The notes under the pieces were generated by a model. It did not search any database. It was not told the origin of the DNA and saw only the letters and a program-made list of their open reading frames with translations. This document shows, one piece after another, positions 10,961 to 17,676 of a DNA stretch of 64,000 nt; the first letter of the stretch is position 1; the number at the start of each line of letters is the position of its first letter. The DNA comes from Chlorobiota bacterium (GTDB lineage: Bacteria > Bacteroidota > Bacteroidia > Bacteroidales > JAADGE01), in contig JAADGE010000001.1 of assembly GCA_013152535.1 (NCBI GenBank), positions 126,007-190,006 on the forward strand, given 5' to 3'. The position numbers and the translations under genes are program-made.

Positions 10961-12340
10961 TTACTTAATTTTCTCAAATTCGGCAGTAAAATGTCGCATA
11001 ATCGGAGCCTCGTAAGTTATTTTCAAACCGTATTTTGCTTCATGTCGTGTATCAAATATTTTTTTACAAACAGCCGCAACATAATCCATATGACTGTTTG
11101 TGTATGTTCTGCGCGGAATTGCTAACCTGACAAATTCCAAATTCGGATAGCGATTTTCTCTCGTTACGGGATCTCTGTCTGCAAGAACAGTTCCTATTTC
11201 AACTCCTCTTATACCGCCGACAATATATAATTCAACGGCAACGGTTTGTGCAATAAACTCTTCTTTATTAATTTGCGGCAAAAATAACTTTGCATCAATA
11301 AAAACAGCATGACCGCCTATAGGATGCTGAACCGGAATACCGGCTTCAATTAACTTATTTCCGAGATATTCAACTTGCTTAATTCTTGCTTCCAAAACCT
11401 CAAATTCTGTATTTTCATCTAATCCCTGAGCCAGTGCATTCATATCTCTGCCGGACATACCGCCGTATGTAACAAATCCTTCAAACATAATATTAAAAGT
11501 TGAGGCCTTTTTAAAAAGATCTTCACTCTTCATTCCGATAAAACCGCCCATATTAACAATTGCATCTTTTTTGCTGCTCATGGTCATTCCGTCGGCATAA
11601 GAGAACATTTCTTTTACAATTTCCTTAATCGTATAATTTTTATAAGCTTTTTCTCGAATTTTTATAAAATAAGCATTTTCAGCAAATCGAGCCGAGTCGT
11701 AAAATACCGGAATTCCGTATTTATCTGCCAAAGTTTTTACATCTTTCATATTTTGTAAAGAAACCGGTTGACCGCCCGAAGAATTATTGGTAATCGTAAC
11801 GATGATTAATGGGATTTTTTCTTTCGGATATTTTTTTAAAACATTTTCCAGTTTATTCAAATCCACATTTCCCTTAAAAGGATGATTTAAAGTTGTGTCA
11901 AAAGCTTCGTCAATTGTACAATCAATTGCTTTTGCTTTACGGAATTCAATATGTCCTTTTGTTGTATCGAAATGAGAATTTCCCGGAACAATATCGCCTT
12001 CTTTTATCATAGCGGAAAACAATACATTCTCTGCCGCTCGGCCTTGATGAGTAGGTAAAAAATAATCGAAGTCGAAGATATTTTTTATAGCTTCTTTCAT
12101 TTTATAATAAGAAGATGCTCCGGCATAACTTTCATCCCCGAGCATCATTGCCGACCACTGTTTATCCGACATTGCACCGGTTCCGGAATCTGTCAGTAAA
12201 TCAATATAAACTTGCGAACTCTTGAGTTTAAATAAATTGTATTTTGCTTCTTTTATCCACTGTTCACGCTCTTCTTGCGTACTTCGATAAATTTGTTCTG
12301 TCATTTTTATTCTGTACGGTTCTGCATATGGTAGTGTCAT
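10961..12340 (-). CDS. tnaA: Tryptophanase (L-tryptophan indole-lyase)
   Basis: PLP enzyme that splits tryptophan into indole, pyruvate and ammonia. The 459-residue chain covers the full beta-eliminating lyase fold: DLLTDSGTGAMSDKQW near the N-terminus, PTHQGRAAEN, DSARFAENAYF and MSSKKDA with the PLP lysine at about Lys258. It is close to tyrosine phenol-lyase in length and start, but the residues that separate the two families favour tryptophanase: HFDTT (Asp, not Thr), VEIG (not MERG) and MRHFTA (His, not Phe). No TnaC-like Trp-containing peptide is visible in the ~165-base leader. Its presence suggests amino-acid fermentation and indole release. Confidence 0.93.
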   Translation of the reverse strand: MTLPYAEPYRIKMTEQIYRSTQEEREQWIKEAKYNLFKLKSSQVYIDLLTDSGTGAMSDKQWSAMMLGDESYAGASSYYKMKEAIKNIFDFDYFLPTHQGRAAENVLFSAMIKEGDIVPGNSHFDTTKGHIEFRKAKAIDCTIDEAFDTTLNHPFKGNVDLNKLENVLKKYPKEKIPLIIVTITNNSSGGQPVSLQNMKDVKTLADKYGIPVFYDSARFAENAYFIKIREKAYKNYTIKEIVKEMFSYADGMTMSSKKDAIVNMGGFIGMKSEDLFKKASTFNIMFEGFVTYGGMSGRDMNALAQGLDENTEFEVLEARIKQVEYLGNKLIEAGIPVQHPIGGHAVFIDAKLFLPQINKEEFIAQTVAVELYIVGGIRGVEIGTVLADRDPVTRENRYPNLEFVRLAIPRRTYTNSHMDYVAAVCKKIFDTRHEAKYGLKITYEAPIMRHFTAEFEKIK

Positions 12341-12511
12341 AATTTCAGTTTTTAAATTTTACATTATAATAATAAATTTTGAATTTTGAATGTTATTATT
12401 AAAAAATATTAATTTTCTCGAAAAGATTAGCTTAAATTATAATTATCCCTTTGCTTTATACAACGAAATAATTGCTTGTTGGTAATATGCAAAGAAATAT
12501 TAAGCATAATG

Positions 12512-15207: not shown

Positions 15208-16080
15208 ATGCCGAATACAAAACAGAAAAAGAATAATAAACTTGCTTATACCGAAGGGTGGTTGTCAATTTTTGCCAATATCATTCTTTTCGGACTAAAA
15301 TATTGGGCAGGAATTGTTTCGGGCTCAGTTGCATTAATTAGTGATGCATGGCACTCGTTGAGCGATTCTATAAGTTCGGCTGCTGTTATTATAGGAACAA
15401 AAATATCATCAAAACCACCGGATAATAAACATCCTTTCGGCCACGGACGAGCCGAATTAATTACATCTACATTAATCGGAGCTTTTCTTGCAATTGTGGC
15501 ATACAGTTTTTTTATTGAATCTGTCAAATCTTTACTAAATCATAAAAAAGCCGTTTTCGGGACTTTATCAATTGTTGTTTTAATTATTTCAATTCTTATT
15601 AAAGAACTCTCAGCTCAATACGCATTTTACACAGCAAGAAAAACAGGTTTTATGTCTCTTAAAGCAGACGGCTGGCATCATCGCTCCGATGCAATCACAT
15701 CTGTATTAATACTTATCGGTATATTTATCAATCCGTACTTTCCGTTAATAGACGGAATTCTCGGAATTATTGTTTCTTTTTTCATACTTTACACGGCTTA
15801 TTCAATTATTAAAGAAACTTCAAGTGCTGTACTTGGTGAGGCTTGTGATAAAAAATTTATACAGAAATTAAAAAAAATTGCCGATAAATCTGCCGGCTTC
15901 GATGTTCAAATGCACCATGTTCATTCTCATAATTACGGAAATCATAAAGAAATTACATTTCATATATATCTTCCTGAAAATATGACAGTTAAAGAAGCTC
16001 ACAATATTGCTGAAGCTATTGAAAAAACTTTGCATAAAGATCAAAATATATTTGCTACCGTTCATATTGATGCTAAATAA
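15208..16080 (+). CDS. Cation diffusion facilitator (zinc/iron/manganese efflux) transporter
   Basis: A 290-residue CDF-family exporter that trades a divalent metal ion for protons across the inner membrane. It has six predicted helices; metal-site motifs are DAWHSLSDS in helix II and DGWHHRSDA in helix V (a H/D-rich pair typical of the family), with the HPFGHGRAE loop between helices II and III. The cytoplasmic C-terminal domain follows from about residue 205, with MHHVHSHNYGNHKEITFHI. The exact metal cannot be read from sequence. It has its own promoter and no obvious partner gene. Confidence 0.92.
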   Translation: MPNTKQKKNNKLAYTEGWLSIFANIILFGLKYWAGIVSGSVALISDAWHSLSDSISSAAVIIGTKISSKPPDNKHPFGHGRAELITSTLIGAFLAIVAYSFFIESVKSLLNHKKAVFGTLSIVVLIISILIKELSAQYAFYTARKTGFMSLKADGWHHRSDAITSVLILIGIFINPYFPLIDGILGIIVSFFILYTAYSIIKETSSAVLGEACDKKFIQKLKKIADKSAGFDVQMHHVHSHNYGNHKEITFHIYLPENMTVKEAHNIAEAIEKTLHKDQNIFATVHIDAK

Positions 16081-16232
16081 TAAATACAGCAGCGTTAATA
16101 ACGGAACCTGAAAACGTGTTCAGTTTAAAGAAATTCTCGGTATCGGATTTTCCGTTAAATTTTAATTTTTCCTAAAAATAATTTTTTTATTCAAAATATT
16201 TCGATTTTATTTGCAGAATAGAAATAAGAAGA

Positions 16233-16301
16233 ATGAATTTTTTACAAAATAATTGGTGGCATAACAAAATTTTAACACAAGGAGAAATCTTTTTGCGATA
16301 G
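16233..16301 (+). CDS. trpL: Putative trp leader peptide (22 residues, tandem Trp)
   Basis: An ATG-initiated 22-codon frame whose codons 8 and 9 are TGG TGG (16254-16259), with sequence around them NNWWHNK. Two adjacent Trp codons in such a short frame, just upstream of a terminator and trpB, are the hallmark of a leader peptide that senses charged tRNA-Trp by ribosome stalling. It is too short for routine ORF calling. No protein function is expected. Confidence 0.75.
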   Translation: MNFLQNNWWHNKILTQGEIFLR

Positions 16302-16325
16302 TTTTGTTATACATTAATCTCATTC

Positions 16326-16357
16326 AAAGCCGCAGGATTTTCTCCTGCGGCTTTTTT
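16326..16357 (+). terminator. Intrinsic terminator of the trp leader
   Basis: Perfect GC-rich 12-base stem (AAAGCCGCAGGA and its complement) with a 5-base loop and six T. It lies inside the trpB 5' region rather than after a normal gene, which points to attenuation. Confidence 0.88.
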
Positions 16358-16497
16358 ATTTTATTAATTTTTATATGATGAAAAAATACATCTTAACCTG
16401 GTTAAATATTATCGAAAATCGTTGGCAGCATACAGACTACTTACATTCACCTAAAAGCAAAATATATTTAACTGATTTACAAATAAATAAAACAAAA

Positions 16498-17676
16498 ATG
16501 ACAACTCAAACACAACAACATACAGATAATAAACAAGGATATTTCGGAGAATTCGGTGGTGCTTTTGTTCCTCCGGTATTGGAAAGCAAATTAAAAGATT
16601 TAGCCGACTTCTTTTATAAAACAGCATTTACGAAAGATTTTGAAAAAGAATTTATTCACCTTCTGAAAACTTATGTCGGAAGACCTTCGCCCTTGTACTA
16701 TGCAAAACGTTTATCCGAACACATCGGCAGCAAAATTTATCTGAAACGCGAAGATTTAAACCACACCGGAGCACATAAAATTAACAACACCGTCGGACAA
16801 ATATTATTGGCAAAACGATTGGGAGCCACGCAAATTCTTGCTGAAACCGGTGCCGGACAACACGGCGTAGCAACCGCAACGGCTGCCGCACTTTTCGGTA
16901 TAAAATGCAAAGTATTTATGGGGGCAAAAGACGTAAAAAGACAAAAATTAAATGTTGACAGAATGAAACTGCTCGGTGCTGAAATTGTAAGTATCGAAGA
17001 AGGACAAGGCACTTTAAAAGATGCCGTAGATGCCGCTTTGGGATATTACATCGAACATCCGGATGCATATTATTTGCTCGGATCGGCGGTAGGACCACAC
17101 CCCTATCCCACTATGGTGGCACATTTTCAAAGCATCATCGGAAAAGAAGCTCGCAAACAATTTCTCGAAGCCGAAGGCAAACTGCCTGACGCAATCGTTG
17201 CGTGTATAGGAGGAGGTTCTAATGCAATCGGTTTGTTCAAAGAATTTATTCCGGATGAAAGCGTTAAAATTTATGCTGCCGAAGGTGCCGGCGAAGGTTT
17301 AAATACCAAACACACTGCTGCTACTTTAAATCTCGGCAAACGTATGATTTTTCAAGGTGCCGACTCGCTTTGTCTGGCAGATGATGAAGGCAAGCCTGTT
17401 GGCTCTTATTCAATTGCCGCCGGATTGGATTACCCGGGTATCGGACCGGAACATGCTTATTTACATAAGATTAAACGTGTCGAATATCATGCCGTTACGG
17501 ATAAAGAAGCCGTTGATGCTTTTAAATTGTTATCCGAAAAAGAAGGTATAATTCCGGCAATAGAATCGGCACATGCCGTTGCTCTTGCAGCGAAAATATT
17601 TAAAAATAAGAACAAAACCATTATAATAAATCTTTCGGGAAGAGGTGATAAGGATGTTGAACGAAAAGAAATATAA
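16498..17676 (+). CDS. trpB: Tryptophan synthase beta chain
   Basis: Joins indole and L-serine to give tryptophan, with PLP. I place the start at the ATG at 16498 rather than 16375: it gives a 392-residue protein of normal TrpB1 length with GYFGEFGGAFVPP near the N-terminus, whereas the 41 extra codons upstream have no TrpB similarity. The PLP lysine is Lys94 in LNHTGAHKINN, and the phosphate-binding loop is CIGGGSNAIG. TrpA and the remaining trp genes are not next to it; in many Bacteroidota trpB is the first gene of the trp operon, so here the operon is split. A Trp attenuator precedes it. With tryptophanase 4 kb away, indole salvage is a possible role. Confidence 0.95.
   Translation: MTTQTQQHTDNKQGYFGEFGGAFVPPVLESKLKDLADFFYKTAFTKDFEKEFIHLLKTYVGRPSPLYYAKRLSEHIGSKIYLKREDLNHTGAHKINNTVGQILLAKRLGATQILAETGAGQHGVATATAAALFGIKCKVFMGAKDVKRQKLNVDRMKLLGAEIVSIEEGQGTLKDAVDAALGYYIEHPDAYYLLGSAVGPHPYPTMVAHFQSIIGKEARKQFLEAEGKLPDAIVACIGGGSNAIGLFKEFIPDESVKIYAAEGAGEGLNTKHTAATLNLGKRMIFQGADSLCLADDEGKPVGSYSIAAGLDYPGIGPEHAYLHKIKRVEYHAVTDKEAVDAFKLLSEKEGIIPAIESAHAVALAAKIFKNKNKTIIINLSGRGDKDVERKEI

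Follow-up and report, generated by a model that had tools for sequence, protein, structure and literature searches.

The locus described here carries trpB, the gene for the tryptophan synthase beta chain, preceded on the same strand by a short open reading frame with two adjacent Trp codons (uORF1), an intrinsic terminator and a second short reading frame with two Trp codons (uORF2). The window is the whole stretch of DNA analyzed, 64,000 nucleotides long, and the genome it belongs to comprises 3.3 Mb in 92 contigs and is 98% complete. A first-pass annotation had proposed a tryptophan attenuator made up of a 22-codon frame with two adjacent Trp codons, a 9-base pairing after those codons, an 8-base pairing and a 12-base terminator stem. 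All four are present where they were placed (Table 1), and a scan finds one terminator where 0.1 is expected from shuffled sequences. The annotation had overlooked the second uORF at 16378, which in this genome is in frame with trpB. Upstream of uORF1 lies a promoter-like sequence with one mismatch to TAnnTTTG, the Bacteroidota -7 promoter element. NNNNTTTG precedes the uORF1 start by 18-20 nt in the 11 genus genomes with this type of trpB, and an exact TAnnTTTG lies no more than 70 nt away in 18 of 45 loci.

Table 1. Features of the trpB locus and of the nearby tnaA gene (positions in the window).
Feature	Position	Strand	Evidence and remarks
Promoter-like TTTATTTG	16206..16213	+	One mismatch to TAnnTTTG
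uORF1, Trp leader peptide MNFLQNNWWHNKILTQGEIFLR	16233..16301	+	ATG at 16233, 22 codons, stop TAG 16299-16301; read directly
uORF1 Trp codon pair TGGTGG	16254..16259	+	Read directly; invariant in alignment A3
P1 hairpin	16261..16310	+	ATAACAAAA 16261-16269 with TTTTGTTAT 16302-16310, 9 bp; fold and covariation
P1b, inner stem of P1	16278-16284 with 16289-16295	+	Fold and covariation
Antiterminator strand	16280..16287	+	AGGAGAAA pairs with TTTCTCCT 16339-16346, 8 bp; own covariation weak
Intrinsic terminator	16326..16357	+	12-bp stem 16326-16337 with 16343-16354; U-run 16352-16357
uORF2 conserved core MKKYILTWLNIIENRW	16378..16425	+	Trp codons 16399-16401 and 16423-16425; frame open into trpB
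trpB, tryptophan synthase beta chain, distinct lone-type clade	16498..17676	+	TIGR00263 555.7 bits, cut-off 392; tree
tnaA, tryptophanase	10961..12340	-	NF053783 835 bits, cut-off 750
Trp-free leader ORF before tnaA, MLNISLHITNKQLFRCIKQRDNYNLS	12427..12507	-	Conserved in relatives

The product of trpB is above the TIGR00263 cut-off, and the gene downstream of the leader is thus one that makes tryptophan. Its start is most likely at 16498, because an MTT.. start is conserved in the family; the mechanically called ORF begins at 16375, uORF2 being in frame with trpB. The nearest named relatives of this TrpB are from two Bacteroidales MAGs and one called Chitinophagales, at 67-68% identity, and the organism is accordingly treated as Bacteroidota. 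The claim that trpB occurs here without the other trp genes is supported. No trpA in the genome is over its cut-off (best 19.5 bits against 102), and the sole chorismate-binding gene encodes 328 aa, compared with 473-497 aa in G022, G024, G026 and G027. The genus set consists of 14 genomes (the host and 13 others), of which 11 have the same lone-type trpB, and none of these 11 has a trpA over cut-off. Genome G011 has an operon-type trpB, and no trpB over cut-off is found in G009 and G013. The gene seems to be truly alone, in an organism that appears to be without de novo tryptophan synthesis and able to rebuild tryptophan from indole.

A lone-type TrpB profile matches 39 of 393 genomes of the order at or above the threshold of 630 bits, the next match scoring 560, and 32 of the 39 have no other TrpB match at E 1e-100. 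Sampling 395 genomes across the phylum adds one locus besides the host's own at E 1e-175 (L187), and no short two-Trp ORF occurs in the 700 bases upstream of that trpB. Phylogenetic reconstruction by a quick method, rooted at the midpoint, groups the lone-type proteins together (a single clade of 53 rows, with some loci present twice; SH-aLRT 98). The main operon-type clade is separate (33 rows, all but one from Bacteroidota or the same order; support 100). The 51 lone-type loci compared below comprise 14 from the window's family, 35 from elsewhere in the order and two named MAGs. tblastn with TrpA, C, D, E and F gives no match at any of the 51, in stretches of 1.5 to 11.6 kb, and at least one match at 20 of 22 operon-type loci. 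A second TrpB present in some genomes of the order (L041, L043, L179, L180) groups in the tree with Chromatiales L068 and not with Bacteroidota.

A Trp-rich uORF followed by a terminator precedes trpB at 47 of the 51 lone-type loci, where dinucleotide shuffles give an expectation of 0.0. The Trp codons are adjacent in 44 of these leaders and one codon apart in three; for L162 and L172 it is doubtful whether the automatic procedure picked the right uORF1. Two of the four loci that lack a leader have fewer than 200 bases of upstream sequence, and no Trp leader is found in the lone-clade members L187 and L054, the latter a named MAG. At locus L034 (genome G014) a single trpB is preceded by two tandem units of Trp leader and terminator (MTTKTQNNNRWWLSF.. 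and MITINNTYSWLWWLF..), behind which uORF2 takes a form that lacks the second Trp.

Loss of the Trp pair or of the stems in relatives had been named in advance as evidence that would speak against an attenuator. Both are kept. Every one of the 11 lone-trpB genus genomes has the Trp pair, as do three genomes from two further genera of the family, and the leader reads NNWW in the same 11 and in 13 of 13 aligned family members. Alignment A3 contains the 11 genus genomes and family members G018 and G020; G014 is excluded, its leaders being longer and doubled. On this alignment the terminator state (P1, P1b and terminator; 28 pairs) is paired in 94.8% of cells and has five pairs with changes on both sides, and on each of five measures 0 of 500 shuffles are as good. 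Versions of this state slid out of register reach at most 55.5% paired. The hairpins of the terminator state are therefore kept through compensatory change in relatives. In the window itself, 16220-16375 folds at -44.1 kcal/mol compared with -21.3 for dinucleotide-shuffled sequences (z -7.5; none of 200 reaches the native value), and 16261-16357 has a z of -8.7. Each of the 13 genomes that went into a covariance model of the attenuator (R1) contains a single strong match to it (E 7e-11 or better). At the seven weaker places inspected (L202-L208) a paired-Trp leader ORF is found in none. Across the 11 genus genomes uORF1 has pS 0.099 and pN 0.109, a ratio of about 1.1, which indicates constraint on the RNA rather than on the peptide.

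The terminator is the best-conserved part of the element; taken alone it has three pairs with changes on both sides and 100% of cells paired. The upstream gene ends at 16080, and in a scan of 16080-16520 no second terminator besides that of Table 1 is found. Both observations could be read to mean that the terminator alone is functional, as a Trp-blind premature terminator or as the terminator of the upstream gene, and that the Trp codons before it are accidental. This is very improbable, however, given the adjacent or nearly adjacent Trp codons at 47 of 51 loci and the covariation of P1 and P1b. The covarying stems and the leaders and terminators found across the clade instead support the reading as a ribosome-mediated Trp attenuator.

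The antiterminator is less simple than the first-pass annotation had it. The 8-bp helix exists, but its own covariation is weak and in the fold it lies within a larger antiterminator, one that includes the terminator's 5' arm. The helix is paired in 88.2% of cells on A3, a value that 6 of 500 shuffles reach; 273 of 500 shuffles are as good on pairs changed and 24 of 500 on score. Sliding the helix by -2 gives a higher covariation score than the given register, and some relatives seem to pair the antiterminator in another register. The transcript expected behind a stalled ribosome, 16272-16350, folds at -19.6 kcal/mol with 16280-16287 paired to 16339-16346 and the 5' arm of the terminator trapped as well. 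In 20 representatives uORF1 pairs with its own terminator at -10.8 kcal/mol, compared with -8.7 for swapped combinations (Wilcoxon p about 0.001). Pairing with the own leader is better than with shuffled leaders at p<0.05 in 21 of 49 cases; G004 and G005 have no such advantage (-5.6 kcal/mol, p about 0.6).

Folding with the ribosome in three positions was computed for 45 loci, L034b, L150b, L162 and L172 having been dropped from 49 as doubtful or duplicate. With the stem four bases short of completion, the mean terminator probability is 0.55 with the ribosome stalled, 0.97 with the ribosome at the stop codon and 0.93 without a ribosome (p below 1e-6 for the stalled state against either other state). 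The corresponding values for the window are 0.05, 0.97 and 0.97. At this point 18 of the 45 loci are below 0.5 when stalled, none at the stop codon and one without a ribosome. The window and G002 (0.10) are the only members of the genus below 0.5 in the stalled state, and six genus genomes are intermediate (0.66-0.77). No switch is predicted in G001, G004 and G005 of the genus or in G018 and G020 of the family, that is, in five of 13 aligned relatives. The full-length terminator dominates every state (0.91 stalled, 0.94 at the stop codon, 0.93 without a ribosome), and a working switch would therefore need to be kinetic.

Leaving aside the role of uORF2, the element is very probably a ribosome-mediated transcription attenuator that ties the lone trpB to the level of charged tRNA-Trp. 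When tryptophan is plentiful, the ribosome would pass through uORF1 to its stop codon and cover the antiterminator strand, and the terminator would end transcription. When tryptophan is scarce, the ribosome would stall on TGGTGG and prevent P1 from forming, which would leave 16280-16310 free to pair with the terminator arms; with these sequestered, RNA polymerase would continue into trpB. The reading draws on the sequence, its conservation and covariation, the occurrence of the element across the clade and the lone status of trpB; the direction of the response to tryptophan and the kinetics we infer. It is hardly credible that the attenuator merely survives from a lost trp operon and is now irrelevant: trpB-first operons of the same order do carry similar leaders, but the separation of the lone-type from the operon-type TrpB clade (SH-aLRT 98 and 100, quick method) argues against a leftover and the parts are still under covarying constraint.

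TrpB would make tryptophan from indole and serine, and the indole may come from a nearby tryptophanase or from neighbours. tnaA lies 4 kb from trpB on the opposite strand. Ten of the 11 lone-trpB genus genomes carry it (G004 is the one in which it was not found), as does G009, and it shares a contig with trpB in five of the 11 (G000, G002, G003, G006 and G012). This proximity points to indole recycling under tryptophan control, and tnaA together with a lone trpB could let a cell degrade tryptophan to indole and rebuild it. Such a cycle would agree with a trpB that is switched on only under a shortage of charged tRNA-Trp. If the attenuator works as proposed, tryptophan attenuation here serves the salvage of indole and not de novo synthesis. 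The TrpB clade concerned is the sole TrpB match in 32 of 39 genomes, and the genus mostly has tryptophanase. The leader ORF before tnaA occupies the position where tnaC would sit. Its consensus is about ITKKxLFxCIKQRDx[YF], and the motif occurs in 11 of 14 stretches upstream of tnaA, including L220 and L222 from two other families. The core has pS 0.885 and pN 0.209 in eight genus genomes.

Between the terminator and trpB, all lone-trpB members of the genus encode uORF2 as M-K-x-Y-I-L-I-W-L-N-I-I-E-N-R-W with few changes. Other families have MNRYILKWLNEITRFW, MKNEILSWLQKVIFRWHR, MNRIIIIWIKKVIKRW, MQYIIRWFNKIDFLW, MTYKIFWENRTDFRW and the like, and judged by eye the consensus may be about [IF]-x-W-[LIWFY]-x6-W-[RQH]. 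uORF2 was counted at 44 of the 51 loci, leaving out two named MAGs, two loci with too little sequence and three in which no terminator was found. An ATG-led peptide with W-x7-W occurs at 26 of these 44 loci, where dinucleotide shuffles give an expectation of 0.04, and is represented in 10 of 19 families; 13 of the loci belong to the window's own family and 13 are among the 30 outside it. Two Trp residues within a short uORF are found at 32 of the 44 (0.6 expected), in 13 of 19 families. Among the 18 loci that lack W-x7-W, six have a short gap between the terminator and the trpB motif (81-91 nt) and six have another two-Trp uORF; those in G014, G119, G040, G166, G336 and G194 have neither. As controls, none of 204 pieces from further upstream and none of 44 reverse strands contain W-x7-W, and the one occurrence among 22 operon-type loci is the Trp leader of L027 itself. 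In all 11 lone-trpB genus genomes the uORF2 pattern, which was designed on these sequences, occurs once per genome and only at trpB. It is absent from G009 and G011, and no second place was found in 21 genomes with two mismatches allowed.

Unlike uORF1, uORF2 is conserved in its amino acids within the genus: over codons 1-16 in the 11 genomes pS is 0.605 and pN 0.084, a ratio of 0.14 (0.06-0.28, bootstrap over codons). Selection ends after the second Trp, and the C-terminal tails vary in length and sequence. The window's uORF2 is the only one of 34 compared that has no stop before trpB, and in L162 and L168 it overlaps the trpB start by four bases. Here uORF2 and trpB form one open frame, 16375-17676 (433 aa from 16375), which may reflect a genuine fusion, loss of the stop codon or an error in the assembly. 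Translation from 16378 gives TrpB with a 40-residue extension, for which no confident order is predicted (pLDDT under 30; no related rows covered this part), and uORF2 as a folded part of TrpB was accordingly set aside.

Selection at the peptide level, the fixed Trp spacing and the free tail favour arrest of the ribosome at uORF2, through the nascent chain or on its Trp codons. The reading of uORF2 as a second, post-terminator Trp sensor or brake on trpB, acting at the peptide level, is tentatively favoured. Kept as a peptide behind the terminator, it would read tryptophan via its nascent chain or its Trp codons. A possible but rather doubtful alternative is that uORF2 encodes a small protein with a function of its own, such as a TrpB partner, that is co-transcribed by chance and senses nothing. 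The purifying selection on its amino acids (pN/pS 0.14) and its presence wherever the genus has a lone trpB would suit such a protein. The end of selection after the second Trp with differing tails, the low pLDDT of the fusion part in the window and the fixed Trp spacing, which suggests Trp sensing, would not.

uORF2 might also act as RNA, by pairing with the trpB start so that a ribosome held on the Trp codons would free that start (translational attenuation). In family f25, where uORF2 reads ..APWWWRG.. (three loci) or ..WAWCWRG.. (L161), pairing with the trpB start region is predicted at -20 to -23 kcal/mol and is significant in all four loci tested (p 0.04 or less), which suggests that this family may use translational attenuation at uORF2. 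The f25-like uORF2 of named MAG L053 gives -13.8 (p 0.09). Among the 26 W-x7-W forms, however, only L144 is at p<0.05, the window having p 0.68, and such pairing is improbable for uORF2 in general; it was rejected as a general mode. In L143, L150, L151 and L053 uORF2 is of the variant ..APWWWRG(L/V/T)PA, and a CCATGGTGG stretch can pair with the trpB start.

If uORF2 is the peptide-level sensor favoured here, one mRNA would carry two leaders under opposite rules, RNA in one and peptide in the other, and would offer a natural test case for the evolution of peptide-level sensing. Tentatively, two Trp sensors would then act in series, a codon/RNA sensor in uORF1 and an arrest peptide in uORF2 that sets trpB translation or mRNA fate, and together with the tnaA leader a pair of leader peptides would tune the breakdown and rebuilding of tryptophan.

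In the E. coli tna operon, tnaC is a short Trp leader kept at the peptide level. uORF2 is comparable in being a short, peptide-conserved Trp leader that may be sensed through the nascent chain; it differs in having no final Pro and in preceding a gene for synthesis. Likeness of uORF2 to TnaC or to the leader of tnaA was judged by eye alone, and we make no claim of it. Of the features of a TnaC-type arrest peptide, the conserved Trp peptide is present in uORF2, as far as peptide conservation goes. E. coli trpL and its proteobacterial relatives (RF00513, Trp_leader) have in common with the window a Trp-Trp leader, alternative hairpins (here predicted) and an intrinsic terminator, but no trp operon follows the window's element. 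RF00513 (cut-off 41) gives no match in the window up to E 10, and the lone-type relative L141 scores 29.6, under the cut-off. The 'trpB ncRNA motif' RF04312, with a similar layout of hairpin and terminator, is the window's highest-scoring weak match at 31.9 bits (cut-off 59). None of 119 genomes of the order has it over the cut-off, and two have it below.

Bacteroid-trp RNA (Rfam RF01692), named in Table 1 of PMC2864571, is a Trp leader peptide RNA found in Bacteroidetes. Trp leaders in Bacteroidetes are thus already known. RF01692 (cut-off 49) is not matched in the window up to E 10 or, at the cut-off, in any of 12 lone-type loci. The operon-type loci L009, L012 and L016 reach the cut-off (three of eight scanned). 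The window's element differs from RF01692 in acting on the lone trpB of another TrpB clade and in being followed by uORF2. PMC7755916 describes indole salvage in Chlamydia trachomatis through trpRBA and a WWW motif in YtgR. The likeness lies in salvage of tryptophan from indole with stalling at Trp codons as the signal, but the Chlamydia system acts in trans via a repressor on trpBA, and the element of the window would act in cis on trpB alone. We recognised no description of a Trp attenuator before a lone trpB, or of uORF2, in a partial search of the literature. The kind of attenuator is known; as far as these searches go, its lone-trpB version with uORF2 is new.

The trpB-first operons L006, L008, L009, L012, L013, L016 and L024, which have trpE in the flank, carry WW or WWW leaders. 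By eye, several trpB-first operons have a GTCGTGAG-like stretch near the leader stop that is complementary to the terminator.
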